In this document: one piece after another, positions 13,529-29,244 of the stretch
How positions within the stretch are numbered: position 1 is the stretch's first letter
Layout of the letters: the number at the start of each line of letters is the position of its first letter
NCBI GenBank assembly: GCA_023474025.1
Contig: JAMCYH010000130.1
Location: 1-64,000, forward strand
DNA from: Deltaproteobacteria bacterium
Lineage (GTDB): Bacteria > Desulfobacterota > Desulfomonilia > Desulfomonilales > Desulfomonilaceae
Direction of reading: 5' to 3'
Length of the DNA: 64,000 bases
Translations under genes and position numbers: made by a program
The notes under the pieces: model-generated
What the model saw: the letters and a program-made list of their open reading frames with translations, nothing else
What the model was told of the DNA's origin: nothing
Databases searched by the model: none

Positions 13529-14470
13529 TTAATAGACTAGGTTTTTTACAAAGGACCCGACATTGTTCAACTTGATGTAACCCAACTCTTTAAGATGATT
13601 GACATACTCTTTGAGACCTTCAACATTAAGATTGGAAACGTATTTAACTTTTTCTATGGCCTGTTTGGCGGTCTGCTCATCCAACCCGGTATGCTTGATG
13701 GCTATCCGTAAAGCTTCGTCCGGGTTATCTCGAATAAAATCGACCGCCTCTCTATGGGCCTTCAGCATTCTTTCCATCTTTTCGTCATTCGCTTGAGCAA
13801 ATTGCCTGTCAGCAACCAGAACACAGCAAGGATGATCTTTCCAAATCTCAGAGGAAGAAGCTAATGTCTTACCTACACCTTTGCATATAGCCTGTGCCGG
13901 ATAAGGTTCCCAAGCGATAAAGGCGTCAATTTGGTCCGTTCTTAGGGCGCCGATCATCTCCGGCGGCTTGATCACCGTCATTTTTATCTGTCTGGGATCT
14001 ACACAAGATGCTGATAAAGCCTTACGCAAGAGCAAATCCTGAACTGTAGAATAACCGGGAATAGCGACATGTTTACCTTTTAGGTCTGAGATAGTCCTTA
14101 TGGGAGAATTCTTTCCAACAACAATAGCCGATCCTTCCGTATTGACCTGGGCCAGAATAACTACTTTAGCCGTGCCATTGGCAACAGCCGTAACTGTAGG
14201 GGCTTCGCCAACATAGGCCATGTCAAGGGACCCAGCCGAAAAAGCGCTCATGATTTCGGGTCCTGCTCGAAAAATACCCGCAATCTCAACATTAATCCCC
14301 TGTTCCCTGAAAAAACCGTTGTCCAATGCCACCCAAAGAGGAAGATGGTGAATATCGTTCTGCAAAACGGCCAACCGGATGGAATTGACAGAAGGATTTT
14401 CGGAATAAACCTTCCCGCTCAAGGGCAAACAAGACAACCAAATAAAGAGGAGCAATGCGACTCGTTTCAT
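13529..14470 (-). CDS. Periplasmic substrate-binding protein, SsuA/TauA/NMT1 type
   Basis: A 313-residue binding protein. The ATG at 14470 follows AAGGAAGG and begins a clear signal peptide (MKRVALLLFIWLSCLPLSG); a longer reading upstream would run into the preceding gene and lacks a ribosome site. The mature protein has the family hallmarks: an early LPLWVALDNGFFREQGINVE strand-helix, SAGSLDMAYVGEAP, and a DAFIAWEPYPA segment. It should capture the substrate in the periplasm for the adjacent permease and ATPase. The closest known classes bind sulfonates, taurine, nitrate or thiamine precursors. Confidence 0.9.
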   Translation of the reverse strand: MKRVALLLFIWLSCLPLSGKVYSENPSVNSIRLAVLQNDIHHLPLWVALDNGFFREQGINVEIAGIFRAGPEIMSAFSAGSLDMAYVGEAPTVTAVANGTAKVVILAQVNTEGSAIVVGKNSPIRTISDLKGKHVAIPGYSTVQDLLLRKALSASCVDPRQIKMTVIKPPEMIGALRTDQIDAFIAWEPYPAQAICKGVGKTLASSSEIWKDHPCCVLVADRQFAQANDEKMERMLKAHREAVDFIRDNPDEALRIAIKHTGLDEQTAKQAIEKVKYVSNLNVEGLKEYVNHLKELGYIKLNNVGSFVKNLVY

Positions 14471-14507
14471 GACCTTCCTTTCATGATTCACCGGGTACAA
14501 AGGTAGA

Positions 14508-15296
14508 TTATTTGTTGCGATTAACCGGATTTGGGTCGAACCTTTCACTACGGGCTTTGGAATCGTAGAGAATGACCTCATAGTATCGGTTGGTAATTAG
14601 GCCTGCAAACATAACGGCGCCAGGACACGGAACAACCAGTTTTTTTTTGAACGAACCCCCAATGATGTTGTACCACTCCATGCAAGCCGAACAGGCATGT
14701 GATGTTTTACAGATTGAGTACGGAACAGGTTCGTCATCTTCAAGGCTGAAAAATACCGGATCTAAGAAGTTCGCATGATTTGCACAGTGAGACACAAACA
14801 ACTCCTCAAATTTTACCCCCCTAAAACCCATCACGTTAAGCCAGCGCTCCTTTTCCTTGTTATCCTGCAGAGCAATGTTATTCCATTCCTCCGGCCGTAC
14901 GTCCTTGTAACTGGATCTTTCAATCAACGCTACTTTATCCTCAAAAGTCGGAAGAAGCTTGGGTTTAAAATCACTCTGACCTATCATCACCTCATAGCGC
15001 AGGTCATAAGCGTCGAGAGCAAAGGAACTCACTAACAGAATTTTATCAAGGTAAACCGAATTTTGGTACCACGAAAGCTGTCTTTTGCATAATTCAAAAC
15101 GCCCCCATGTCTGCGGCAGCACGTAAGCTAGCTGTATCCGTTTTGACAATGGCGAACAAACGGCCTTCTTTGTTTCCGTCAAGGAATAGCCATCTGTGAT
15201 TATTCTAGTCTTGAGTTTTTCAAAGACAAATTCATCCAGCCAGTAAACAAATTTCTTGTAAGTATAACTACTCTTCATTTCCACACTTAATATCAT
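14508..15296 (-). CDS. Protein of unknown function with conserved-looking cysteines
   Basis: A 262-residue protein I do not recognise. It has no signal peptide or membrane span. The N-terminal third is basic and aromatic (SYTYKKFVYWLDEFVFEKLK). The C-terminal half holds a cysteine group, SHCANHAN, then CKTSHACSACMEWYN, then VPCPGAVMFAGL, which could bind a metal or Fe-S cluster. It lies between the HdrD-like gene (26 bases upstream) and the importer binding protein (37 bases downstream), so it is probably co-expressed with both. The start is uncertain, since neither the ATG at 15296 nor the one six codons later has a clear Shine-Dalgarno sequence. Confidence 0.65.
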   Translation of the reverse strand: MILSVEMKSSYTYKKFVYWLDEFVFEKLKTRIITDGYSLTETKKAVCSPLSKRIQLAYVLPQTWGRFELCKRQLSWYQNSVYLDKILLVSSFALDAYDLRYEVMIGQSDFKPKLLPTFEDKVALIERSSYKDVRPEEWNNIALQDNKEKERWLNVMGFRGVKFEELFVSHCANHANFLDPVFFSLEDDEPVPYSICKTSHACSACMEWYNIIGGSFKKKLVVPCPGAVMFAGLITNRYYEVILYDSKARSERFDPNPVNRNK

Positions 15297-15322: not shown

Positions 15323-16654
15323 TTACTCTTTTTTCAAGGCGCTGATCACCAGGTGGGTCATGTCTCTCATGACCAGAGGTGAATTCAAAGCTCCTATCCC
15401 CACTTGAAGACCTGCGTAACAGAAGGGACAGGCGCTGACCAGTTCCTCGGCCCCTGTCTGTTCAGCTTCTTTGATCCGAGCTTGGGCCATCTTGTTTTGA
15501 AGGTCCGGGAAACCTGCCTTAACCCCGCCTCCGGCTCCGCAACATCTGGAGTACGGCCCATGTCTAGGCATCTCGATGAGCTCTATTCCCGGTATGGCAT
15601 GGATTACATTTCTAGGCTCATCAAAAACTCCTGAAGCTCGTCCCAGGTGGCAGGGGTCGTGATAAGTAATTACCTTTTCTACGGGAACATTGAATTTAAG
15701 CTTTCGTGGTACCAACAAACGGTGCAGGAATTCAACGGTGTGCAAGACTTCGAAGTTGAGCCTCCCAACTTTAGGGTAATCCTCCTTGATGGTCTTGAAA
15801 CACCCTGCGCACGAGGTGACAAGTGTCTCAATAGAAAGACTGTTAAGAAGTTTAATATTGTCGGAAGCGATGCGTTCATACTCGGGGTCGCCCATTCTTA
15901 ATAGAACACTGCCGCAACATTTCTCATTTTCTCCCAGGCACCCGTAATCTATGCCAAGAATTTCCAACAGATTGACTGTGTCGATGGCTATTTGCCGGAT
16001 GTTCAGGTCATATACGGCAGTGCAACCAAAAAACAGAAGAGTTTTACTCTTCGTCTTTTTGATTTCCGGAGGAAGATTCGATATCAATTCTTCCTTTTTG
16101 GCTCGTCGCGCCCATTTTACTCGACCCTGTCGAGGTTGTTGCCAAGGGTTATCATAGGATTTTACACTCTTTGCCAATGTTTTTTGAGGTTCCAGGGGAC
16201 CGTAACCCGACGAAACCATGAGCTCGCGGATGTTTTCCCAAAGGTTAACCGTATCAATATTTGCAGGGCATACGACCTGGCATTGCCCGCAGGTAGAGCA
16301 CTCGTACAAATTAAGAGCAAAACGCTGAACATCCTCTTCGTTGATTTTTTCCAGCCTGAATATTTTTCGGATCCACTTTTTAACAGGATCGGGCACCCGC
16401 TGATTTTCAACTATTGGATTTAGAAGACTCTGCTGATTTTTCACTATACGAAGGAAATCGAGAATTTTTTGACGGGGAAGGATGTTTTCTCTAGGATCCT
16501 GGTCGTACACTGGGCACCAGATCAAACACTCCCCGCATCGTGTGCATGCGTCCAGTTGGACGAGTCGTCTCATCTCTATCCTGTCTAGTGGAATTGTGCG
16601 GGCCGGCGGGTTTGAGTCTTCCGGAGCCATTTCCATGGGATCTGTTTCAATCAT
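15323..16654 (-). CDS. HdrD/TmcB-like CCG-domain iron-sulfur oxidoreductase
   Basis: A 443-residue cytoplasmic Fe-S protein. Two ferredoxin-type cluster motifs lie near the N-terminus (CTRCGECLIWCP and CSTCGQCQVVCP). Two CCG domains follow, with CCGSVLLR...SCAGC and RCCGAGGG...ACPFC, the noncubane-cluster type of heterodisulfide reductase HdrD, TmcB and DsrK. It should exchange electrons with a cytoplasmic thiol/disulfide-like or ferredoxin partner. It is the last gene of a block encoding two multihaem cytochromes and two membrane cytochrome b domains, so it is very likely their cytoplasmic arm. I chose the ATG at 16654; a TTG seven codons earlier overlaps the purine-rich GAGGAGAA ribosome site. 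Confidence 0.9.
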   Translation of the reverse strand: MIETDPMEMAPEDSNPPARTIPLDRIEMRRLVQLDACTRCGECLIWCPVYDQDPRENILPRQKILDFLRIVKNQQSLLNPIVENQRVPDPVKKWIRKIFRLEKINEEDVQRFALNLYECSTCGQCQVVCPANIDTVNLWENIRELMVSSGYGPLEPQKTLAKSVKSYDNPWQQPRQGRVKWARRAKKEELISNLPPEIKKTKSKTLLFFGCTAVYDLNIRQIAIDTVNLLEILGIDYGCLGENEKCCGSVLLRMGDPEYERIASDNIKLLNSLSIETLVTSCAGCFKTIKEDYPKVGRLNFEVLHTVEFLHRLLVPRKLKFNVPVEKVITYHDPCHLGRASGVFDEPRNVIHAIPGIELIEMPRHGPYSRCCGAGGGVKAGFPDLQNKMAQARIKEAEQTGAEELVSACPFCYAGLQVGIGALNSPLVMRDMTHLVISALKKE

Positions 16655-16675
16655 GATATATTTTGTTCTCCTCAA

Positions 16676-18103
16676 CTACTCCTTTTTGTAATTTAGGATC
16701 AGACTCAAGGGAGTAGTGAAAATGTGTTTCAATTTCCCAAACGGGAGATACGCTATAAACAAGGCCCACAGCATCGCATGAACATACCACAGGTATCCGT
16801 AGGCCCACTGCCAGTTAATGTTTACAACCGACAGGATCCTGGATATGAGATAACCAGCGAAAGCTGACAAAGCAATCTGCTGAGGGATTTGAGTGATAAG
16901 GATTCTAACTCCCTCCACGATAAAACCCGTAAGTGTAACAAGTCCAATAATTATCAACGCTAACGTATCCTGCTCCTCCGTTGATACATATTCGGGTTTG
17001 CTGACGTAACGCCGGAACATAGCCCAAGCAACTCCGGCAAGGATAAAAACGCCGGTAATATCGTTGAACGTGGCGACAAATCCGCTATCCTTATTCACCA
17101 GCATCATGGCCAACTCACTTCCTGGGGAAACTTTTTGCAGGAGAAGCGTAAATGAACTGAGCGCAAAGCGGGCGAAAAAGGAATAGAAAATTAGTGAATG
17201 AATAAACCATCGACTCACGCCGTTGGCCAAGATCCTGCGCTGCAAAAGGACATCGAAGAAAATGGTGTTCATGATGGAGAAAAATTCTCTAGAAAAGATC
17301 TTGCTCCAAACAACCTCTGAACCCAATTGAAACTTTCTATGAACAGAAGATACTTCACCCTGAACACTAGCTCTGAACCAAAAGGCAAGCGTCCCAACGA
17401 TACCGATAATCGCAATTATGATAGCTACCAGAAATATAGGGTTGCTCATCCGCAAGGGGGAGTAATGGCAGGCGATGCAAACAAAACTCTTGGACGGCAA
17501 AACCATTGTAGGAGCGCCGACTTGATTGTTGGACGCGTGGCACTTTGTGCAGAATTCCTCTCTCGCAACATCGGTAGTTTTATGTTCGGCCAAGCTTATA
17601 GGAAGCGACTCGACATTTGTATGAGAGAGTTTAACTTCATTCCCGGCAATGTCTAGCGCCACAAATTGTGAATCGGTATGGCATGCTTCGCACCTTACAC
17701 GAATGTGCGAGGCATGTGTCCCGGGAGCCCCTAAAAAGTTTATATGACATTGAAGACATGTAACACCAGATAATGACCGATGGGGAGACCTCGCCACATC
17801 CGCATGGCACTGAATACATGCCACAAAGCGATGCGAAGATTGTTGAAAATATTCCGGTTTCACCTGAAGTGAAACCTTAGCGTCTCGAAAATCTTCATGG
17901 GAAGCTGGATTTAAGTGACAATCGTAACAAAATAATTGGGAAGATAGAATCCCCTCATTGGCGTTCAAATTTCGCTGACGGTGGCAATTCAAGCACTCTG
18001 AGATCTGTTCGTCCGCGTTGGTAAACTGGACCATACAAAAAGCGAGGAAACAAAGCGCCATAACGCACGCTGCCAATGCTGATTTTAGTAACCTTTGTTT
18101 CAT
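16676..18103 (-). CDS. Heptahaem cytochrome c fused to DsrM/TmcC-like membrane cytochrome b
   Basis: A 475-residue fusion. A signal segment (about 1-30) exports the N-terminal domain, which holds seven CXXCH haem c motifs (CLNCH, CYDCH, CIQCH, CLQCH, CEACH, CTKCH, CIACH) up to about residue 215. The C-terminal part, from about 225, has five to six hydrophobic helices and ends with a YLWYVHAMLWALFIAYLPFGKLKH helix typical of the DsrM, TmcC and HdrE/NarI group that binds haem b and quinone. The polypeptide therefore spans periplasmic haem chain and membrane quinone site. The next gene encodes the HdrD-like partner 21 bases away, as in Tmc and Dsr complexes. Confidence 0.88.
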   Translation of the reverse strand: MKQRLLKSALAACVMALCFLAFCMVQFTNADEQISECLNCHRQRNLNANEGILSSQLFCYDCHLNPASHEDFRDAKVSLQVKPEYFQQSSHRFVACIQCHADVARSPHRSLSGVTCLQCHINFLGAPGTHASHIRVRCEACHTDSQFVALDIAGNEVKLSHTNVESLPISLAEHKTTDVAREEFCTKCHASNNQVGAPTMVLPSKSFVCIACHYSPLRMSNPIFLVAIIIAIIGIVGTLAFWFRASVQGEVSSVHRKFQLGSEVVWSKIFSREFFSIMNTIFFDVLLQRRILANGVSRWFIHSLIFYSFFARFALSSFTLLLQKVSPGSELAMMLVNKDSGFVATFNDITGVFILAGVAWAMFRRYVSKPEYVSTEEQDTLALIIIGLVTLTGFIVEGVRILITQIPQQIALSAFAGYLISRILSVVNINWQWAYGYLWYVHAMLWALFIAYLPFGKLKHIFTTPLSLILNYKKE

Positions 18104-18137: not shown

Positions 18138-18863
18138 TTATCTTTCTCCGGCGGAATTAGCTTGAACGGAAGCGTTTAATCGCGCCCACTCTCCAGGATG
18201 AGTTCTCCTAATTTTCTCTTTGGTCGTTTTTCCTGTGAAGATAGTCCAATCACCAGGATAGACTTCCGGTCGGAAATGACGAACGGTGGTGTGTATAAAA
18301 AATTTGTAAAGCACCGCTAATACAGCTTCGTCGAAGTGGAGCACTTGAGCAAGGTTGATAAAGTATCCTGGAACGAAGCGGGAAAAGAACTCCGGAAACC
18401 AGAGAAGCAAACCTGTGAGGCCCATAGTTTGCATACCTATGAAAAGTGTCCAGTAATCGAGTTTTTCCCACCAGGCGAACCGCTCAAATGGAGGTGGCGC
18501 ATTCCGGAGCGCGAGGATATATCCGATATGGTCACGAAAATACGAAAGATCTTGCTTGGTAAAACATATGGAATGAGGTCCCAAGAGATTCCCGCGTAAA
18601 ATGAACTTGTAATAAATTAGCCATAGGACTTCTGTGACCACACACAAGTACAGCACTACAGCAAACAATCTATGCAGATATCGTACGCTATCGACTCCTC
18701 CGAGGAACCAAGCAAATGCGCGAGCGGGCGCCATAGAACTGAACGCCATAGAAAACCCGGTTAGTCCAATCCCTATAAATGCAAACATTACGGTTAGATG
18801 CACTGTTCTTTGAAGAACACTAAAACGCCAGAAAGTCTCCTGCTGTATAGTCTGCTCAGCCAT
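18138..18863 (-). CDS. Membrane cytochrome b (FdnI/HydC/b561 type)
   Basis: A 241-residue integral membrane protein with about four to five hydrophobic helices and histidines positioned for two haem b groups (RTVHLTVMF, RYLHRLFAV, LHFDEAVLAV, FFIHTTVRHF). The C-terminal FRPEVYPGDWTIFTG segment is common in cytochrome b subunits paired with multihaem cytochromes. It probably moves electrons between menaquinone and the periplasmic hexahaem cytochrome encoded one base upstream. It belongs to the same operon as the heptahaem fusion, so the complex may have two separate membrane b modules. Confidence 0.87.
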   Translation of the reverse strand: MAEQTIQQETFWRFSVLQRTVHLTVMFAFIGIGLTGFSMAFSSMAPARAFAWFLGGVDSVRYLHRLFAVVLYLCVVTEVLWLIYYKFILRGNLLGPHSICFTKQDLSYFRDHIGYILALRNAPPPFERFAWWEKLDYWTLFIGMQTMGLTGLLLWFPEFFSRFVPGYFINLAQVLHFDEAVLAVLYKFFIHTTVRHFRPEVYPGDWTIFTGKTTKEKIRRTHPGEWARLNASVQANSAGER

Positions 18864-18864
18864 A

Positions 18865-19770
18865 TCAGCGTCCTCTCAGCCTGTTATGAAGTTCACGAAG
18901 TATCCAAACGAAAGTTTGTAGGGCAAAAAACGCCAGGACAAGGACAGTAACTATTTGGCCGATTCGCTTTATTGTTAAAATCAGGGCCATGTGGACCTGC
19001 TTCTTGGGGTCCTTTTTCGAAATGTCTTCAGATCCGGTATGAATTACTATGTCCGCGAAACGTGTCGAAGCGTTTCTATGGCATCTTCGGCAAGCAGTCA
19101 AAGCCTTCTCTTTAGCTTTAAGAGACTCGCAGGTGTGCGCCCCGTGGCAGTCAGTACAGTACGCTGAGGCCTTCTTCTCCAGGAAAACACCCAATTGGCC
19201 ATGGAGGTTTTTAAGATAACTCATTTTTTGTGACACATGACACTTTCCACACGTGAGAATCATTTGTTCGCCCATTGTAATCCTGGAAAGTTTGGCTTGC
19301 GCATAATGGGATGAATGACAGTCGCCACACGTCGGAGCTAGACGTTCAGGGGGAGCCGGTTTACCGCCGGCTAACCGGCCCTCTTCTTGTTTGGCAAGAA
19401 CTTTGGCATGTTCGCCCATTAAATAGCGCTTGTATGACTCCGGATGACATGTGGCGCAACGCTTGTAATCGTAAGTTCTGACACTGTCTTTTCTTATCGC
19501 GGTCGGATCTTTTCGATTTGGATGAACATTACCCTTTAATGTCATTTCACCGTGACACCGATCACATTTTAAAGACCCATGGGCTGATTTTGAAAACCGA
19601 TTCATGTCTATAAACCAGTCGGAGGAAGAGCTTGAGTCTTCACACCATGCAGGCCGCGTATATATTGGTAAAAAGAGCGACGACGCGATTATTGACACCA
19701 TGAAGAATTGAAAAAGCGTCATACCCTTTACCTTTATCAGCCCAGGAAAAAACATTCGAAATCGGTCCAA
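18865..19770 (-). CDS. Membrane-anchored hexahaem c-type cytochrome
   Basis: A 301-residue cytochrome. The TTG start at 19770 is supported by AGGAG six bases upstream; the next ATG five codons on is too far from that box. An N-terminal export segment (about 17-42) leads to six CXXCH motifs: CDRCH, CATCH, CGDCH, CGKCH, CTDCH and CRRCH. A C-terminal hydrophobic helix (about 265-290) anchors the protein with its haems in the periplasm. It is the first gene of the cytochrome block and would relay electrons to or from the cytochrome b encoded next. The pattern resembles NapC/NrfH-linked and Ohc-type cytochromes, but I cannot assign a named family. Confidence 0.88.
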   Translation of the reverse strand: MDRFRMFFPGLIKVKGMTLFQFFMVSIIASSLFLPIYTRPAWCEDSSSSSDWFIDMNRFSKSAHGSLKCDRCHGEMTLKGNVHPNRKDPTAIRKDSVRTYDYKRCATCHPESYKRYLMGEHAKVLAKQEEGRLAGGKPAPPERLAPTCGDCHSSHYAQAKLSRITMGEQMILTCGKCHVSQKMSYLKNLHGQLGVFLEKKASAYCTDCHGAHTCESLKAKEKALTACRRCHRNASTRFADIVIHTGSEDISKKDPKKQVHMALILTIKRIGQIVTVLVLAFFALQTFVWILRELHNRLRGR

Positions 19771-19819: not shown

Positions 19820-19852
19820 AACATCACAATATTATTATAAATATTGGTGTTA
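19820..19852. promoter_or_regulatory. AT-rich inverted repeat upstream of cytochrome genes
   Basis: The segment has imperfect arms CACAATATT and AATATTGGTG around ATTATA, in the 79-base gap between the amidotransferase-like gene and the hexahaem cytochrome. It could be an operator or a weak terminator. There is no T-tract on either side. Confidence 0.35.
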
Positions 19853-21229
19853 ATTATCTAATAATAGTGAATTAAAATAAGTCTGAAGACAAAACATGGT
19901 TAATCGCCGTAAAGAATCGAAAAGATGTGGAGCAATCCCCTGGGTCTCTAAACGGTCATCTATACGGGACTTAACTTCTCGCAAAATTCGTGTTACCTCA
20001 CATGCGGAAGGTGTCATTTCTTCAAGGGTTTGGTTTGATATTTGGATCCTTGGTGATTGCTCCAGCCTACCAAGACGTTTCCATATGGCCTCCAGGAAAA
20101 CCCTTATTTTTTCCGGTTCGTAAATTTTGCAACCGATGGTCCAACGAACCGAAGCTGCCTCTAGGCCAACGGACACGATCCGCGCATTGCTGATTTCCCG
20201 CTTAATATCTCGAACCAGCTTTCTTTTTGCTGCGCCGTCAAGGACGATTTCGCTCATCCCAGAGGTTCCACCGACGCTCGACTTTTTCATGTCCCAGAAA
20301 ATAGCATTAGCCACCAGGTGATTAGCTATCGGAAAATGCGGATGTTCAAAATGAGGCCCAAAGAGATAAAGGACACCATTTCCCAATTCTGATCTCACGG
20401 CGGCCACATTACCTATCAAAGTTTTTTCCGCTAAAGTTTCATCAACCAAAAACAATGTCTTCTTTGTGAAGGCATCGTACTGAGCCATGATCTCGGACGC
20501 GTTGCCTGTAACCATAGAAGGTCCGCCATACAATGGCGCAAGAAAACTGCCCACACCAGAAAATGGCCCCTTTTCGGTCGATCTCAGCCGCACTTCTTCC
20601 CGAACAGGGTGATATACGTAGTCACACCCGTAAGCTGTAGTCGCCTTGCGGCCTAACTGTTTGACAGTAGGCGCTGTTTTGGAAATATTGGCGATCTTTA
20701 TATCCACAAAATTGAAGCGGTCCAGATGTTGCTTTGAAGATTTTAAGGGAAGGTAAGCTCCTGCGCACGATCCTACATAAAGCCCTCCCTCTCCGATAAA
20801 TCGCTCTAATTCATAGGCTCCTTCAGCGCCAAGCCCTTCGGCGATTCGAATAGTGTCCCCACCTGACATGGCGAAGACGTCGAGATTTTTAAGGACCCCG
20901 TTTTTCACCATGTCTTCATCTAAAAAAACGACATCATGAAAAAACATCCGGTCGAAAAGATCGACAAACCACAGCCATGAATGGGATGTCCCCGAACCTG
21001 CGTACAAACCAATGCGCGGGACCCTCAAAGGACAAGGGCGGGCAGGAGGTAAGAGACTTGCCTCCTCATCCCCGTAAAGGATTTCAGCACCCCGCGCCAG
21101 TTTTTGATTTATAGACGCATAAAAGTTGTAAAAATTAATTCCGTTGTTATGACATCCCGTGGCGCCTCTATCGCCGAATGGCCAAAATTTACGGCTAAAT
21201 CGGGAAGGAGGCCCACTAGCTGCACACAT
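19850..21229 (-). CDS. Class I amidotransferase-like protein (biotin-protein-ligase N-terminal-like fold)
   Basis: A 459-residue cytoplasmic protein. The first roughly 280 residues resemble the glutamine-amidotransferase-like domain found at the N-terminus of eukaryotic-type biotin protein ligases: YAGSGTSHSW near 76, AMSGGDTIRI near 119 and the nucleophile-elbow-like VGSCAGAYLPL near 152. The Cys in GSCAG is in place, but I cannot confirm a full catalytic triad. The last third (about 310-459) is charged and helical with no recognised domain. It overlaps the AOR-like gene by 14 bases, which implies coupled translation. The family often occurs as an unassigned neighbour, and its substrate is unknown. 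Confidence 0.7.
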   Translation of the reverse strand: MCAASGPPSRFSRKFWPFGDRGATGCHNNGINFYNFYASINQKLARGAEILYGDEEASLLPPARPCPLRVPRIGLYAGSGTSHSWLWFVDLFDRMFFHDVVFLDEDMVKNGVLKNLDVFAMSGGDTIRIAEGLGAEGAYELERFIGEGGLYVGSCAGAYLPLKSSKQHLDRFNFVDIKIANISKTAPTVKQLGRKATTAYGCDYVYHPVREEVRLRSTEKGPFSGVGSFLAPLYGGPSMVTGNASEIMAQYDAFTKKTLFLVDETLAEKTLIGNVAAVRSELGNGVLYLFGPHFEHPHFPIANHLVANAIFWDMKKSSVGGTSGMSEIVLDGAAKRKLVRDIKREISNARIVSVGLEAASVRWTIGCKIYEPEKIRVFLEAIWKRLGRLEQSPRIQISNQTLEEMTPSACEVTRILREVKSRIDDRLETQGIAPHLFDSLRRLTMFCLQTYFNSLLLDN

Positions 21230-22535
21230 CTTCGATTACTTTATCCAGTATGTCTTGATTTAGCTCGAGCCCTGTACCCTTATTAACCATTTCTAACATC
21301 AATTCTTCGGAAAGCTCCGGCGCCATATTCGCAAAAATAGGATGAATACCGAAGATGTACGCCACAGCTTGCCTCCTTTTCCACCAAGCGCCATATTCGC
21401 TTGTGTCCGAGGCGTCGAAATTAGAAAAAAGAGGTTTTCCAGGCGCCCAGTAACTAAACCTCCCACAGTCCGGAACTGAAACAGGTCCTTCGAGATCTTT
21501 GAGGGATTTTTCAATATTTTCGGGGTCTTTTTCTCCAGATTTTACGCAGAATTCGGCAACCGCCAAGGGGTTGATACCATACTTGGCGCACGCTTTCATA
21601 ACACTGCCAGCGTCTTTTGCTGAGAGCCCTGCTCTCTTAAATCCCAGTAGCGCACAGGGATCGGTGACCAGGAAGCCAGGTTCCGGTTCATCTGGCTCTG
21701 TAAGGGTTTTGGGATCTTCACTTAAATACAGAAAAGTATTGGTGGCGTAGGGGGTATTGTAGCAGGCGCTATTTCGATGGACGAGGGGAAGAATCCATTC
21801 TGTAGCATCATTTTCACCCATTGCTGAAAAAATATCCTGAATACCGGTTTTCCCCATAAAAGATCCTTTTTTGATCTTTTCAAATAGCTCAAAGCATTGA
21901 TCAACAAAATCTTCAGGTTCGGAAATTTCCAACAGGCCCATCCCTCGCAGAGCAATAGCTTTCAGATTTTTTTCACCAAACGATTTCCCGAATCCCCAGC
22001 AATCTCCACTTCCCCAATAATTGATACAGACCTGGGCGAGTTCTGAGCCAGACTCTGCGGCTGGTCCCACTACCAGGGTCTGGATAAGGTCGTCACCCAT
22101 ACTTCTGCGTATGTGGTCCGAAGCCTTCCAGACGTCTGAACCCCAAATTTCAGACGCGTCCTGGATGTCCGCTACACCATCATGAAGCCAAAGAAATACC
22201 GGTTTGACAGCTTTTCCCAAGACCACTACATAGTCAAAGCCAGTGTACTTTAACTCCATTCCAGCTTTCAATGTTAACGGAGAATGAGCGACTTCTCCTG
22301 TTTTGGCGCTCTTGGCGGAAATAATTCCCAAGGCTGAACCAGGGAACAGACTGCCCGTCAGTAAACCGGTCCCGAGCACTATCGGATCCTTGTCCTTATA
22401 TGTCTCATATAGAGAGGAAGTAATGCCTACTCCACCGATCCTGTGGCTTACCAGTTCATCGTCAAGTTCATCTTCTGTAATTTCGCCCGATTCTAGGTTA
22501 ACAATCAAAATCTTGTTCGATGACAAATAGTCCAT
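21216..22535 (-). CDS. AOR-family oxidoreductase-like protein lacking most Fe-S ligands
   Basis: A 439-residue relative of aldehyde:ferredoxin oxidoreductase, which normally exceeds 600 residues and binds a tungstopterin and one [4Fe-4S] cluster. The ATG at 22535 follows GGAGGAG. The N-terminal domain is recognisable (IGGVGITSSLYE, KSPLT-like SAKTGEVAHSPLT, ELKYTGFDYVVVLGKAVKP, KNLKAIALRG). The cluster site is degraded: where AORs have CxxCxxxC, this protein reads CYNTPYAT, so only the first Cys remains, and the distant fourth ligand region reads FGIHPIF with His. The C-terminus is short. It is two bases from a ferredoxin-like gene, suggesting a complex. It may be a cofactor-altered or non-catalytic AOR. 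Confidence 0.85.
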   Translation of the reverse strand: MDYLSSNKILIVNLESGEITEDELDDELVSHRIGGVGITSSLYETYKDKDPIVLGTGLLTGSLFPGSALGIISAKSAKTGEVAHSPLTLKAGMELKYTGFDYVVVLGKAVKPVFLWLHDGVADIQDASEIWGSDVWKASDHIRRSMGDDLIQTLVVGPAAESGSELAQVCINYWGSGDCWGFGKSFGEKNLKAIALRGMGLLEISEPEDFVDQCFELFEKIKKGSFMGKTGIQDIFSAMGENDATEWILPLVHRNSACYNTPYATNTFLYLSEDPKTLTEPDEPEPGFLVTDPCALLGFKRAGLSAKDAGSVMKACAKYGINPLAVAEFCVKSGEKDPENIEKSLKDLEGPVSVPDCGRFSYWAPGKPLFSNFDASDTSEYGAWWKRRQAVAYIFGIHPIFANMAPELSEELMLEMVNKGTGLELNQDILDKVIEDVCS

Positions 22536-22537
22536 TT

Positions 22538-22918
22538 CTACTCTCCTCCCTCTACTAGCGAGATTGCATTGACCGGACAAATTTTGACACACATCGGACC
22601 ATATTTCATGCCATCACAAAGGTCGCATGGCTCTCGCAGAAGCATGGGTTTGGCTGAAGCGTCAGCTTCTTTCTTTTGTCCGGTAGATCCAGGCTCTTCG
22701 GCTACCCCGATTCGTTTGATCTCAAGCCCTTCAGGCCTTGCTATAGTGAGGCTCTCTTCTTCTTTTATGACTACTCCGAAGTAGTCTTTTTTTTCTCTGG
22801 CTCGATAAACCACAATACATGAAGCAAGCAAAGCGAACGCATCGTCCCTGTGATAGCCACAGGCCATCTCACAAGCCATGCACCCTATACATTTAAGTGC
22901 GTCAACATCAATCCTCAT
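22538..22918 (-). CDS. Ferredoxin-like two-cluster iron-sulfur protein
   Basis: A 126-residue electron carrier. The ATG at 22918 is seven bases from GGAG; a GTG just before it is the alternative. Cysteine motifs CIGCMACEMAC near the N-terminus and CDLC...CVKICP near the C-terminus define two [4Fe-4S] clusters in the HycB/DmsB-like arrangement, with a long insert between them that contains a charged, low-complexity loop. It precedes the AOR-like gene by two bases and is probably its electron-transfer subunit. It is the first gene of the long minus-strand cluster, facing the FCD regulator across a 770-base control region. Confidence 0.88.
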   Translation of the reverse strand: MRIDVDALKCIGCMACEMACGYHRDDAFALLASCIVVYRAREKKDYFGVVIKEEESLTIARPEGLEIKRIGVAEEPGSTGQKKEADASAKPMLLREPCDLCDGMKYGPMCVKICPVNAISLVEGGE

Positions 22919-23688: not shown

Positions 23689-24636
23689 ATGTTTAAACCG
23701 ACACAAAAGGGTCATAAAGTATCGCACTATGTTGTCGAGCAAATCCGTGACGCGATTCTCACAGGAGAATTCAAACCCGGAGATAGACTGGCCTCAGAAA
23801 GGGAACTCATTGATCAGTTTCAGGTAAGCAAGGCAAGCATGCGTGAAGCCTTGAGAGTTTTGGAAGGTATGGGACTCATTGAGACCAGAAAAGGCACAGG
23901 TGGAGGAATTTTTGCAGCTGAAGTGAACATGAATACTACGGTGCATAGCCTAACGAACTTCCTTCATTTTAAAAATGTTTCGGTTGGTGATATCACCATG
24001 CTTCGATATTTTCTGGAACCACGCCTAGCCGAAATAGCCTCTTCAAAGGTCACGGAAAATGATATCCGGATATTGGAGACTATGACAGATGACGAAGTCA
24101 ATGCTCCCCCTGTCAAGGATCAACGAGGAATTGGATTTCACTACTATATAGCGCGGTTTTCAGAGAATCCGCTCTTAATATTGCTCATGGACTTCGTTGA
24201 AAGTCTCCTCGCAGATCTAAAGGTAAAGCTTAACCCTGAACCTGAATTTTATCGTGAAGTCGAGGACGATCATTATAGGATCATCGAATGTCTCAGGCGG
24301 AGGGACGCTGTTGGTGTAGGAGGGGAGATGGCTGAGCACGTAATTAGGGTAGGCCGCTTTCTGGCAAAACTTGCGGGAACCGTTCCTTTTTATCCAGCCG
24401 AGTACCACAGAGATAGTAGTGTTCCTGGCAAACAGACTCTGCCTGGCTGGTCGCAGTTCACCAAGCATGATGAGTCGTTGCCTTCGATGGCGGAAGAGAC
24501 GCTCCAGGATTTGGGAGTTCTTCTTAGATGTGTAGGTAATGGAGACCTGTACCTCGTTAAATTAAGACAACAAGAATCAGAAATCCATGAACAGCCGGAA
24601 CTGAAAAACGTTCAGGACATATCAGTCACTTTATGA
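23689..24636 (+). CDS. GntR-family transcriptional regulator, FadR/FCD type
   Basis: A 315-residue regulator. Residues about 10-75 form the GntR winged helix (AILTGEFKPGDRLASERELIDQFQVSKASMREALRVLEGMGLI), followed by a helical FCD ligand-binding domain up to about 230. The last 80 residues extend beyond the usual FCD length and are unassigned. FCD regulators respond to small acids such as lactate, glycolate, malonate or fatty acyl-CoA. It lies just upstream of the aldehyde dehydrogenase gene, which begins 26 bases after its stop, so it likely controls that catabolic unit and possibly the divergent ferredoxin/AOR cluster. AGGAGGT precedes the ATG. Confidence 0.93.
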   Translation: MFKPTQKGHKVSHYVVEQIRDAILTGEFKPGDRLASERELIDQFQVSKASMREALRVLEGMGLIETRKGTGGGIFAAEVNMNTTVHSLTNFLHFKNVSVGDITMLRYFLEPRLAEIASSKVTENDIRILETMTDDEVNAPPVKDQRGIGFHYYIARFSENPLLILLMDFVESLLADLKVKLNPEPEFYREVEDDHYRIIECLRRRDAVGVGGEMAEHVIRVGRFLAKLAGTVPFYPAEYHRDSSVPGKQTLPGWSQFTKHDESLPSMAEETLQDLGVLLRCVGNGDLYLVKLRQQESEIHEQPELKNVQDISVTL

Positions 24637-24662
24637 CTGCTGAAATATTAAAGGAGAATCAA

Positions 24663-26264
24663 ATGCATCCTATGGAATCAGCGCTCAAAGATGTCAATTA
24701 TTGCTCGAAGATGGGAAATGGACCTTCAAGACTAAAATATTGCGTAAATGGTGAGTGGCTGGAATCGACAACAACAAAATTCATGGACTGCTATAACCCT
24801 TCCACTGGTGAAGTTATTGCGCATGCCCCACAGTGCACCGTTAGTGAAGTCGAATCGGCAATTGCCGCCGCCAAGGCTGCTTTTCCCTCATGGGCTAATA
24901 CTCCGCCGAACAAGCGGGCTCAGGTGCTCTTTCACATGAAAGCGTTGCTCGATGAACACCTGGAAGAGCTTACATATCTACTTTGCAAGGAAGAGGGTAA
25001 ATCCTGGACCGAATCCATGGGTGACATCCTCAAGGTGAATGAGGTTGTTGAATTTGCATGCGGGATTCCTCATCTCATGAAGGGGGAATCCATCATGAAC
25101 GTATCGTCTGGTTATGATACGGTTTTATATCATCATCCGCTAGGTGTATTTGTGGGCATTCCCCCGTGGAACTTTCCTGCGATGATACCTCATGGTTGGA
25201 TGGCTCCTTTATGTATAGCAACAGGCAACACTCTGGTCATTAAAGCTGCCAGCTTTGTTCCACAATCTGCGATGCGTATTCTGGAACTCTGGCACGAAGC
25301 AGGGCTTCCCAGAGGCGTTATAAATATTGTAACGGCTGGCAGGAATGAAGCAGAGGTCTTCCTGAGGCATCCGGATGTGGTTGGCGTATCCTTCGTCGGA
25401 TCAACAAAGGTTGGTCGACACATTTACGCTACAGCGGCGGCCAACGGTAAACGGGTTCAAGCTCTGACAGAAGCGAAAAATCATGCTTTGGTCCTGCGTG
25501 ACTGTAAGCTTGATCGAACCGCGAACGGTATTATCAATGCCTTCTGTGGCTGTGCGGGGGAACGGTGTATGGCCTTACCTGTCATTTGTGTAGAAGAGGC
25601 TATAGCCGATGAGTTGGTGGCTGAAATCAAGAAGTTGGCTATCCAGAGAAAAATCGGCGCAGCTTATGACAAATCCACCGAATTGGGCCCTGTAGTTAAC
25701 TCTGGTCACCTGAGATTTGTTACTGACTGGATAGAAAAAGGCATTCAGGAAGGGGCTGAACTTGTACTCGACGGACGTAACCCGAAAGTCCCACTGGATT
25801 GTGAAAAAGGGTTCTTTGTTGGACCGACGATCCTGGACAATGTGAAACCCGGTATGAGCTGTGGTGATCAAGAAATTTTCGGCCCAGTGCTTTGTGTCAA
25901 GCGTGTTAAGAACTACGACGAAGGATTGGCCATAATGAATGCTAGTGAATTTGCTAACGGTTCAGTCATCTATACCCAGAATGGCTACTATGCGAGGGAC
26001 TTTGCCTATCGTACCCATGCGGGAATGGTCGGGATCAATGTTGGTATTCCTGTGCCGGTAGGAATATTTGGTTTTACCGGACACAAGCACTCCTTTTTTG
26101 GTGATCTACATGTGATGGGTAAAGACGGGGTTCGTTTTTTCACGGAAGTAAAGAATGTTACTTCTACATGGTTTAAGGAAGGCGCGGGCCTGGCGACTTC
26201 CGCAAAGGTTGACACCTGGGATGGGACAATAACCTCTTTGCCCACCGAACAGGACAAAAAGTAA
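24663..26264 (+). CDS. Aldehyde dehydrogenase, CoA-acylating methylmalonate-semialdehyde type (MmsA-like)
   Basis: A 533-residue dehydrogenase. The ATG at 24663 has AGGAG six bases upstream; a start ten codons earlier overlaps the regulator stop and lacks a site. It has PPWNFP (nucleotide-binding region), GSTKVGR, and catalytic Cys302 within AGERCMA, a motif of methylmalonate-semialdehyde dehydrogenases. In QALTEAKNHALV the position of the general-base Glu of hydrolytic aldehyde dehydrogenases is Leu, consistent with CoA-dependent acyl transfer instead of hydrolysis. The exact substrate is open; short-chain aldehydes such as methylmalonate or malonate semialdehyde fit the family. An N-terminal extension of about 25 residues precedes the core. 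Confidence 0.88.
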   Translation: MHPMESALKDVNYCSKMGNGPSRLKYCVNGEWLESTTTKFMDCYNPSTGEVIAHAPQCTVSEVESAIAAAKAAFPSWANTPPNKRAQVLFHMKALLDEHLEELTYLLCKEEGKSWTESMGDILKVNEVVEFACGIPHLMKGESIMNVSSGYDTVLYHHPLGVFVGIPPWNFPAMIPHGWMAPLCIATGNTLVIKAASFVPQSAMRILELWHEAGLPRGVINIVTAGRNEAEVFLRHPDVVGVSFVGSTKVGRHIYATAAANGKRVQALTEAKNHALVLRDCKLDRTANGIINAFCGCAGERCMALPVICVEEAIADELVAEIKKLAIQRKIGAAYDKSTELGPVVNSGHLRFVTDWIEKGIQEGAELVLDGRNPKVPLDCEKGFFVGPTILDNVKPGMSCGDQEIFGPVLCVKRVKNYDEGLAIMNASEFANGSVIYTQNGYYARDFAYRTHAGMVGINVGIPVPVGIFGFTGHKHSFFGDLHVMGKDGVRFFTEVKNVTSTWFKEGAGLATSAKVDTWDGTITSLPTEQDKK

Positions 26265-26402: not shown

Positions 26403-27878
26403 ATGTCTGAATTAAGCAGCTTAAGACAGGAGCAAGTTACTGGAATTGCGAGCGCTGGAAAGGTTGATTCTGTGCTCAGAGAGCTCAGAAAAATTGTTGG
26501 TGACTCAAACTGTACAGCTTCAAAACACATTCGTTACGCCTACTCGTATGATCTCAGCTTTGTAAAGCCCAAGATGCCAGACTATGTTGTCATGGCTGAG
26601 AAAGTTGAGCAGATCCAGGAGCTTCTTCGATTTGCTAACAGGGAAAAAATCCCAGTTGTTCCTTACACAGCCGGCACGAACATTGGCGGGCTGACGATTC
26701 CTGAACGGGGTGGTATTCTCCTCGACCTCAAAAAGATGAACAGGATTGTCGATATCGACTCCGAATCACATGTGGCGGTCATTGAACCAGGTGTTTCGCA
26801 CGCCAAACTGGCGGATGCCCTGTATAAGCACAGACTCAGATTCGGTTGGCCTGTCGGTCCACCATCGGCTTCGGTGCTGGCATGCGCAGTATCTCACGGT
26901 ATTGGTGGACTCAACGCCAAGTATGGCTTGAACAGCCAGGAAATTACCAGCATGGAAGTAGTACTTCCTACAGGGGAACTAGTCCGTGTAGGTTCGTGCG
27001 CAATAAGACATGACGCTTGGCACAGTTGTCTACCCCTTCCTCAGCTTGATGGATTATTTAAGGGCTGGCTCGGGACAAGCGGTGTAGTGACAAAAATCGG
27101 TATTAGTGTGCACCCGATCCCTCCGGTTCTGAAAGTATTCACGGTGTCATGTGACAACGTCGAAGATATGTACTCGTACATGCACAATCTGAGTAATTAT
27201 GAAATGTGCGATGATCTCACGGCTGTTTCCTGGTGGCTTGCGCAGGTGCCGATCCCCTATCCTTTCAAGCCTAAGCCTGATAACGCCCCAGAGTGGTTCA
27301 GCTTTGCGACTACCACGTCCTGGACTGAGAAGGAACGTGATGCGAGAGTAGAGATTTGGGAAAAAGTTTTCGAGGAAGAGCAAAAGAAGGGAACGTCTGT
27401 TAAGCAAACCGTCTACCCTGAAGAGGCCTTGAAGGGAAGAACCCAATTACCCAGTCAGGTTGTGGGCTCCACCAAGAACTACTGTAAGCAGGGGGGCGCG
27501 GGGATATCCTGGCCCGGTACTTTTACCCCAGCCAAGGTCTGGGCCCCTGTATACAACAAGTGGAAAGAGATTCTCATAGCGCACAATCTTTCACCGTCCG
27601 TTCGTATGAGTATGTATCGAGGGGTCCACTATGGAATGCTCAGGGCCATGATTCCGTTCAACAAACAGAGCGATCAGGAAACCGAAAATGCGAGACACGC
27701 TATCGTTGAATGTCTGAAAGTAGATTTGGATGCGGGAGGCATTCCCTATAAACCGCCGATAGATTTTGCCAACGAGATCAACCAACGGGCCGATCCCGGA
27801 TACTTGGATCTTTTGAGAAGAATGAAGAAGTTTCTCGATCCAAACGATATCATGAATCCCGGCAAACTCGGCATATGA
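26403..27878 (+). CDS. FAD-linked oxidase, GlcD/D-lactate dehydrogenase-like
   Basis: A 491-residue flavoprotein of the PCMH-type FAD family. The N-terminal FAD-binding domain shows VVPYTAGTNIGG, ILLDLKKMN and VIEPGVSHAKLADAL (about 80-150), with a later GTSGVVTKIGISVHP segment. The C-terminal FAD-linked oxidase cap ends with the typical DPNDIMNPGKL. Enzymes of this type oxidise 2-hydroxy acids such as glycolate, D-lactate or 2-hydroxyglutarate, passing electrons to an Fe-S partner. The next gene, 37 bases on, encodes a GlcF-like Fe-S protein, so the two should form a dehydrogenase complex. AAGGAGG precedes the ATG. Confidence 0.88.
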   Translation: MSELSSLRQEQVTGIASAGKVDSVLRELRKIVGDSNCTASKHIRYAYSYDLSFVKPKMPDYVVMAEKVEQIQELLRFANREKIPVVPYTAGTNIGGLTIPERGGILLDLKKMNRIVDIDSESHVAVIEPGVSHAKLADALYKHRLRFGWPVGPPSASVLACAVSHGIGGLNAKYGLNSQEITSMEVVLPTGELVRVGSCAIRHDAWHSCLPLPQLDGLFKGWLGTSGVVTKIGISVHPIPPVLKVFTVSCDNVEDMYSYMHNLSNYEMCDDLTAVSWWLAQVPIPYPFKPKPDNAPEWFSFATTTSWTEKERDARVEIWEKVFEEEQKKGTSVKQTVYPEEALKGRTQLPSQVVGSTKNYCKQGGAGISWPGTFTPAKVWAPVYNKWKEILIAHNLSPSVRMSMYRGVHYGMLRAMIPFNKQSDQETENARHAIVECLKVDLDAGGIPYKPPIDFANEINQRADPGYLDLLRRMKKFLDPNDIMNPGKLGI

Positions 27879-27915
27879 GCAATCAATAGAATACGGATTC
27901 GAATTGGAGGCGACA

Positions 27916-29244
27916 ATGGACTGGAAGATTGCGGAGCTGAAAGAGCTTGAGGATAAAATTTGGAGATGCACGGCTTGCGGAACCTGTAAAACAGCTTATG
28001 ACTACGGGCCACCACCGACCTTCGGAGAAATTTGCCCGGCCGGAACCGAGTTTGGGTTCGAAGGTTTTATGGCGTCCAAAGGAAAGATAGCATTCGCTAG
28101 AGGTATTCTCAGTGGCGAACTTCCCTGGGACGAAGAATTAGTGGAGGCGATCTACAAATGCACTGTTTGCGCTGGATGTCAAAACCAGTGCCAACTCGAC
28201 CACAAGCCCTATATACCTGAAATAATTGAAGCGATGAGACGTAAGGCAGTGGCTGAAGGCGCTGGTCCCATGCCTCTGCACAAAAATCTTCTCCAATCAA
28301 TGAAAAATTACAACAATCCATACCAAGGCCCGAGACGTGTGAGAACGGACTGGACACGTCCCTTCAAAAAAGCCGGAAAACCTATTAAGGACCTGAATAA
28401 GGAGCCAGCCCCGGTCCTGTTTTTTGTTGGTTGTACCGGAGCGTTCAACACGGCAGCGCGAGCAGTCCCTACTGCGACGGCGTCTATTTTCCAAAAACTT
28501 GGCATGGATTTCGGGGTCCTAGGAGAAAATGAAATCTGCTGCGGCTCCACGGCAATGCGAGTAGGAGACTCCGAGGAATTCAAGAGGGTTGCTACAAAAA
28601 ACCTTGAGACATTTAAATGGTTGCATGACGAGCGAGGAGTAAAAACTATCATTAGTTCCTGCGCCGGGTGTTACCGGGCCATCAAAAAAGATTATTCACT
28701 TTCTTCTGAATATGACGAAGTTATGAGTGGTATAGAGGTCATTCATACCGCGGACTACCTAAACCGTCTTTTCAAGGAAGGTAAGCTCAAATTTAAAGGT
28801 GAGCTGCCGTGGAAAGTCACTTACCATGATCCCTGCCACACCGGGAGACATTTAAACAAGTTCATTATAGATCATGAGGGCAAACAACTCTGGAAAGGGG
28901 CATATGTGGATGTTGATCAGAGTGAATGCCTGTACGAGCAGCCAAGGGATCTACTGAAAGCGATTCCCGGCATCGAGTTTGTCGAGATGAAGCGCAATCG
29001 CGCTAACTCGTTCTGCTGTGGCGGCGGTGGTGGCGTTATGACGGGTTTTGGAGATTGGGCTGCAAAGAATGCAAGCTTAAGGATTCAGGAGGGTGAAGAG
29101 ACAGGTGCGGAAAGGATTGTATCTATTTGCCCATTCTGTCATTTCAACCTCAATGAAGGCGCAAAAAACATCAGCTCTCAAGTCAAGGTTCACGATTTGA
29201 CGGAGCTAATTGATCAGGTGCTCGTAGGAATCAACGACGATTGA
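27916..29244 (+). CDS. GlcF/HdrD-like CCG-domain iron-sulfur subunit
   Basis: A 442-residue Fe-S protein starting at the ATG six bases after GGAGG; a TTG four codons upstream lies within that box. The first ferredoxin site is unusual in layout (CTACGTCKTAYDYG, with ICPAG 20 residues later), and the second is CTVCAGCQNQCQ. Two CCG domains follow (ICCGSTAMR...SCAGC, FCCGGGGGV...ICPFC). A long insertion (about 305-330) sits between the CCG halves. It should accept electrons from the preceding FAD oxidase and deliver them to quinone, ferredoxin or an Hdr-like partner. It is homologous to the HdrD-like protein of the cytochrome cluster, and both share the YDNP/YNNP-type segment before the first CCG domain. 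Confidence 0.9.
   Translation: MDWKIAELKELEDKIWRCTACGTCKTAYDYGPPPTFGEICPAGTEFGFEGFMASKGKIAFARGILSGELPWDEELVEAIYKCTVCAGCQNQCQLDHKPYIPEIIEAMRRKAVAEGAGPMPLHKNLLQSMKNYNNPYQGPRRVRTDWTRPFKKAGKPIKDLNKEPAPVLFFVGCTGAFNTAARAVPTATASIFQKLGMDFGVLGENEICCGSTAMRVGDSEEFKRVATKNLETFKWLHDERGVKTIISSCAGCYRAIKKDYSLSSEYDEVMSGIEVIHTADYLNRLFKEGKLKFKGELPWKVTYHDPCHTGRHLNKFIIDHEGKQLWKGAYVDVDQSECLYEQPRDLLKAIPGIEFVEMKRNRANSFCCGGGGGVMTGFGDWAAKNASLRIQEGEETGAERIVSICPFCHFNLNEGAKNISSQVKVHDLTELIDQVLVGINDD

Follow-up and report, generated by a model that had tools for sequence, protein, structure and literature searches.

A family of short AOR-fold proteins predicted to lack the tungsten-pterin cofactor and encoded next to a two-cluster ferredoxin

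We investigated a minus-strand gene (21216..22535) within a 64,000-nt stretch of Deltaproteobacteria bacterium (assembly GCA_023474025.1, contig JAMCYH010000130.1, positions 1 to 64,000; the window in the following). It encodes a 439-aa protein with the fold of aldehyde ferredoxin oxidoreductases (AOR), which we refer to as short AOR-fold protein (sAOR). Judging from its aligned residues, sAOR belongs to a distinct AOR-fold family without the cofactor that defines AOR enzymes. That is, a bacterial and archaeal family seems to have dropped its tungsten site and then, repeatedly, its iron-sulfur site, while fold and ferredoxin partner were kept. Our hypothesis on the function, held at about even odds (probability roughly 0.5), is that sAOR is a pterin-free AOR-fold subunit serving its ferredoxin in a GlcD/Hdr-type electron-transfer system. 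An old enzyme fold thus seems to have taken on a different task, and nature provides in this family a test case for the capabilities of the AOR fold and its ferredoxin contact in the absence of metal. An earlier note on this DNA had described lost iron-sulfur ligands in the window protein; the finding is larger, since the tungsten site is apparently lost as well, family-wide and even where all four cluster cysteines are present.

Fold and Family

The Pfam domain AFOR_N (PF02730) matches the N-terminal 200 residues of the window sAOR with 149 bits (cut-off 29.8, E-value 1.5e-43). AFOR_C (PF01314 / IPR001203, domains 2-3) gave no match in the same Pfam search; within the family, 8/37 members match it weakly (best E-value 2e-9) and none in full. 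An AlphaFold2 model based on 37 family sequences is of high confidence (pLDDT 94.5, pTM 0.93). Foldseek aligns it to the AOR structure 1aor with a TM-score of 0.79, whereby the alignment reaches across the reduced C-terminal part, and all its significant matches are AOR-family structures (TM 0.71-0.81 by query length). Both the membership in the AOR family and the shortened chain that had been claimed are therefore confirmed, the latter by 439 aa vs. 600-722 aa for sampled canonical AORs. The claim that the N-terminal pterin-domain features persist stands for the fold, i.e., the AFOR_N match and the similarity to 1aor, but not for the cofactor-contacting residues, which are gone. We place the gene start at the ATG at 22535, since the corresponding MDYLS ATG is common to close orthologues. 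The listed GTG start at 22592 was rejected; it overlaps the ferredoxin gene.

About 53 non-redundant members were obtained by scanning 395 genomes from the phylum together with a species-level genome collection; as these scans were pattern-limited, the true spread is probably larger. The family separates from canonical AORs by a score gap (at least 243 vs. at most 168, one C-terminal fragment aside). Its hosts are Desulfobacterota, Actinomycetota, a metagenome-assembled genome (MAG) of Syntrophomonadaceae, and archaea (Methanomassiliicoccales, Theionarchaea, Euryarchaeota). We found no sAOR in the viral contigs and plasmid records searched. A fusion-like open frame of 975 aa from one genome was discarded, because it is a stop-free frame in GC-rich DNA inside which the sAOR-like gene starts.

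Loss of the Tungsten-Pterin Site

We compared residues in an alignment of the 53 sAOR members with 25 canonical AORs, using the numbering of PfAOR (1aor) for the latter. Arginine at position R76 is found in 24/25 canonical AORs and in 0/53 sAOR members; the window protein has L69 instead (22329..22331, minus strand, as all sAOR residues below). The position of N93 is taken by proline in 51/53 members (P86 in the window, 22278..22280). In PfAOR, N93 is a backbone ligand of the pterin-bridging Mg and holds it, together with A183, between both pterins (PMC12096430). The G95-G96 loop is gone from the family. Within the second Mg/phosphate loop (PfAOR H181-G185; W174..D178 in sAOR, 22002..22016), the position of G185 is Asp in all 53 sAOR members (D178) and in none of the 25 canonical AORs. 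D489, which is Asp or Asn in 25/25 canonical sequences, is neither in the 50 sAOR members with data, 42 of which show Tyr.

A similar picture emerges for the second shell, which T243, E313, Y427, and H448 form in aldehyde-oxidising members (PMC12096430). By deletion, sAOR lacks the stretches that would align with T243, Y427, and H448, and neither a PEYE-like nor a DPR..RGxxH motif occurs in the 53 members. Some of these second-shell residues are also missing in YdhV, BamB, and some other true AOR/WOR members (PMC12096430).

Since the pterin-holding residues and segments are lost, we predict the whole family to be pterin-free. As the alignment indicates, no member has kept the tungsten-pterin site, not even those with all four cluster cysteines. 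It could be argued that sAOR is rather a divergent oxidoreductase that binds a tungsten- or molybdenum-pterin in an altered way: it retains the fold of the AOR N-domain as well as E101, K103, and G106, and the cofactor is available, as only five of the 37 searched host genomes lack moaC and nearly all have other AOR genes. We consider this improbable given the family-wide loss of R76, N93, G95-G96, D489, and the three deleted segments. Known members, on the other hand, keep the cofactor and such residues are near-invariant: according to a 2025 review, all known AOR/WOR members have a tungsten- or molybdenum-bis-pterin (PMC12096430), and a 2026 WOR classification finds very little variation among cofactor-coordinating residues (PMC13328260). 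Co-occurrence with moaC or full-length AORs was uninformative as a test of pterin use, because nearly all hosts have both. The MAG of the window itself contains seven further AFOR_N genes, mostly of full length, i.e., canonical tungsten enzymes coexist with sAOR.

In place of the lost residues, H84, P86, W174, D178, H253, and R254 are 90-100% conserved in sAOR and nearly absent from canonical AORs. Their positions fall within the former Mg/phosphate loops and immediately ahead of the cluster loop. The window protein carries the family hallmarks: proline and aspartate at the positions of N93 and G185, respectively, tryptophan at 174, His-Arg ahead of the cluster loop, and the eight-Cys ferredoxin upstream. 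Taken together, sAOR probably no longer oxidises aldehydes; to label these genes 'aldehyde ferredoxin oxidoreductase' is misleading, and they should not be filed as functional AORs. Our searches of the open-access literature (subscription papers were not part of it) turned up no AOR clade described as pterin-less or Cys-less. The 2026 classification would miss such a family, since it took only sequences with both N and C domains (PMC13328260).

Loss of the Iron-Sulfur Cluster

Profile-profile alignment places C258-Y-N-T261-P-Y-A-T265 of the window sAOR (residues 258-265, 21741..21764) exactly over CFSCPLHC of canonical AORs, i.e., over the CxxCxxxC site; the PfAOR ligands C288/C291/C295 are fixed by the PDB numbering in the alignment to 1aor. 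Both the MAFFT multiple alignment and the global profile alignment put H398 (21342..21344, within FGIHPIFA, residues 395-402) over the fourth ligand, C494. Thus, C258 is the only ligand retained, with T261, T265, and H398 in place of the other three, such that the [4Fe-4S] ligand set reads C-T-T-H in the window protein, while other branches of the family keep it. This agrees with the earlier note in the replaced motif, the histidine at the fourth position, and the loss of most ligands. Cysteines at shifted positions, which might have rescued the site, were excluded by the profile-profile and global profile alignments.

A trivial reason for the missing ligands would be a decaying AOR pseudogene, for which the shortened chain and the ligand loss itself might speak. 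However, orthologues of the window sAOR at 87, 75, 74, 70, and 69% identity have open frames within the same operon, intact frames are found in many genera, and the predicted fold is well formed. Pairs of orthologues have pN/pS values of 0.10-0.24 (sAOR) and 0.04-0.12 (ferredoxin); dN/dS, where computable, is 0.05-0.10, which is a rough value since many pairs are close to saturation at synonymous sites. The CTTH ligand set recurs across several genera, which together with the pN/pS values argues against sequencing error or decay. A frameshift was likewise considered and rejected. sAOR is under strong purifying selection with its fold intact; gene decay, which the earlier note had named as a refutation of its reading, is contradicted, and we give the pseudogene next to no probability.

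Across the family, all four ligand cysteines (CCCC) are found in archaeal, actinobacterial, and several Desulfobacterota members. A large clade that includes the window sAOR shows CTTH or derivatives of it (including xxxD), a second Cys-loss clade [SAG]C[YA]D, and a third one SCAC. We computed the tree by a quick method and without the ligand columns, using a distant CCCC subfamily as root; it has some long branches. It demands three losses of the cluster, and a single loss is rejected (approximately unbiased test p=0.0005, log-likelihood difference 133). Whether Cys loss marks out clades had been proposed as a phylogenetic check, and in this tree it does. The cluster appears to be retained in deep lineages and to have been lost at least three times, later than the tungsten site.

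The Ferredoxin Partner

Directly upstream of sAOR lies a ferredoxin gene (22538..22918, minus strand) that encodes 126 aa with Fer4 matches and eight cysteines (CxxCxxCxxxC and CxxCx8CxxxC), for which two [4Fe-4S] clusters are predicted. Its stop codon (22538-22540) is two bases from the sAOR ATG, as had been stated. An AlphaFold2 model of the ferredoxin alone was of low confidence (pLDDT 51) and was not used. A ferredoxin is found directly upstream at 42/42 sAOR loci, several of which are close relatives, and at 0/22 canonical-AOR loci, which are mostly from Chloroflexi, unmatched by taxon, and partly with short flanks, such that the contrast is qualitative. With the same reservation, the BPL_N (28/42), GlcD-like (25/42), and HdrD-like (32/42) neighbours of sAOR loci are each found at 0/22 of the canonical ones. 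All eight cysteines are present in 40/42 ferredoxins, and the other two copies are cut by contig ends. As 8-Cys ferredoxins, the partners make up a subfamily of their own, with a conserved stretch that separates the two cluster motifs.

The eight-Cys ferredoxin accompanies CCCC and Cys-lost sAOR lineages alike. This contradicts the suggestion that the sAOR cluster is now supplied by the partner, which had been prompted by the two-cluster ferredoxin two bases upstream: as the ferredoxin has the same eight cysteines also beside sAORs with all four of theirs, nothing was transferred, and ferredoxins with an extra cluster confined to the Cys-lost clades were not seen among these loci. We therefore regard a partner-supplied cluster as very improbable. 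Instead, since the cluster was repeatedly lost while the ferredoxin keeps its eight cysteines, selection on sAOR is independent of its own cluster.

Proposed Role of sAOR

We favour an adaptor role because sAOR is constantly accompanied by the ferredoxin and by redox proteins of Hdr type, whereas its metal sites are not constant. In this model, sAOR would form an obligate pair with its dedicated two-cluster ferredoxin and act as docking or adaptor subunit that holds the ferredoxin in the electron path. Electrons might come from GlcD/HdrD-type dehydrogenases that oxidise a hydroxy acid or similar substrate, and might be passed to a membrane cytochrome b/c-HdrD system or to HdrA. Such a role would explain why sAOR could dispense with its own cluster but the ferredoxin had to keep both of its clusters; lineages that keep the sAOR cluster would have an extra one-cluster relay. 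Residue losses, clade structure, gene linkage, and the predicted fold are shown by the data above; the contact between sAOR and ferredoxin, the direction of electron flow, and the substrate class are what we infer.

Several observations weigh against the adaptor role. Gene order is the sole pointer to a direct contact of sAOR and ferredoxin, and the contrast to canonical-AOR loci is qualitative as noted above. GlcD/HdrD neighbours are absent at archaeal loci, so the redox context is not universal. The BPL_N gene is left unexplained. Finally, the conserved residues on the former cofactor loops (H84, P86, W174, D178, H253, R254) reflect more constraint than a plain scaffold needs.

The main rival is that sAOR is a new enzyme with the tungsten pocket rebuilt by these six residues for a different ligand or substrate, while the ferredoxin feeds or drains electrons. 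The 90-100% conservation of these residues, which flank the cluster loop or belong to the former Mg/phosphate loops, persists once the cluster is lost, and a ligand might be provided or processed by the product of the neighbouring GATase-like gene. But no ligand, fold, or sequence match supports a particular cofactor, and with bulky Leu/Trp in place of G96, the cavity may just be occupied by side chains. We thus consider a rebuilt pocket possible but doubtful. Its more specific form is to be taken as a tentative and rather unlikely proposal: in bacteria and archaea, the tungsten-enzyme fold might have turned into a metal-pterin-free ferredoxin-dependent enzyme or ligand sensor that uses H84, W174, D178, and H253 as active site and works with the BPL_N GATase-like protein.

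Relation to Known Systems

Closest to sAOR are the large subunits of AOR/WOR enzymes (PfAOR, 1aor; Clostridium autoethanogenum, 9g7j), which share the AFOR_N domain, the overall fold, and a ferredoxin partner. In comparison, sAOR is 160-220 residues shorter, its tungsten-pterin residues are gone, the second-shell segments are deleted, and the cluster ligands are lost in three clades. The class II benzoyl-CoA reductase BamBC (4z3w, Foldseek TM 0.76), whose BamB subunit has a Cys ligand to the tungsten, likewise combines an AOR-fold subunit with a small ferredoxin subunit and has Hdr-type partner genes. In contrast to sAOR, which keeps none of the tested pterin-binding residues, BamB retains the tungsten-bis-pterin (PMC12096430). 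The filament-forming AorABC of Aromatoleum aromaticum (8c0z) also pairs an AOR subunit with a ferredoxin-like one (PMC10413684). AorABC is a catalytic tungsten enzyme, whereas the partner of sAOR belongs to its own 8-Cys ferredoxin subfamily. GlcDEF / TfrB / DsrMK-type Hdr-like systems share FAD oxidase, CCG-domain HdrD, and cytochrome b/c with the surroundings of sAOR. To our knowledge, none of them has been described with an AOR-fold subunit.

Gene Neighbourhood

The BPL_N / GATase-like gene (19850..21229, minus strand, 459 aa, PF09825 with 3.6e-8) overlaps the sAOR stop codon. The nucleophile-like motif G-S-C-A-G and the conserved sequence F-G-P-H-x-E-H-P-x-F-P-x-A-N are kept in most of the copies compared, among them an archaeal one; the C-terminal half of the protein is conserved as well and has no Pfam name. 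By these motifs, the protein looks catalytically competent. Among 60 relatives searched, sAOR, ferredoxin, and BPL_N co-occur in exactly the same eight, six of which are from one taxonomic family.

The minus-strand genes beyond encode a multihaem cytochrome c with C-terminal hydrophobic stretch (18865..19770, a conserved neighbour), a cytochrome b561 / FdnI-like membrane protein (18138..18863), a fusion of a cytochrome c3-like and a NarI/QmoC-like cytochrome b part (16676..18103, also conserved), and an HdrD/TfrB-like iron-sulfur protein with two CCG domains (15323..16675). Next is a conserved operon protein without Pfam match (14508..15296) that is shared by 11 sAOR loci, in one of which (L086) it immediately follows sAOR. 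The NMT1-like periplasmic substrate-binding gene (13529-14581, minus strand) recurs beside sAOR operons, including Actinomycetota (L102, L103, L105), and may be a clue to an imported substrate. Conserved genes downstream of it are possibly its permease and ATPase.

On the plus strand, a divergent operon encodes a CoA-acylating aldehyde dehydrogenase of methylmalonate-semialdehyde dehydrogenase type (24633..26264; TIGR01722, 531 bits, cut-off 448.5), a GlcD-like FAD-linked oxidase (26403..27878), and a second HdrD-like iron-sulfur protein (27904..29244) that pairs with GlcD. Also divergent are an MFS-type transporter gene and, as read from its sequence, a GntR-type regulator. In Actinomycetota and Syntrophomonadaceae loci, HdrA adjoins sAOR; genes for methylmalonyl-CoA mutase, acyl-CoA dehydrogenase, SDR, and thiolase are near some of these and related loci.

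The distant short-AOR subfamily used as root has all four cluster cysteines and lacks the pterin Arg (L046 1852-4463 and L136 7107-10019, from genomes G026 and G303). Upstream of it we find genes for a NapH-like polyferredoxin, an HdrA-like protein, and molybdopterin-oxidoreductase-like proteins, the latter assigned by reading the sequence; this context suggests a formate-linked electron-transfer complex.

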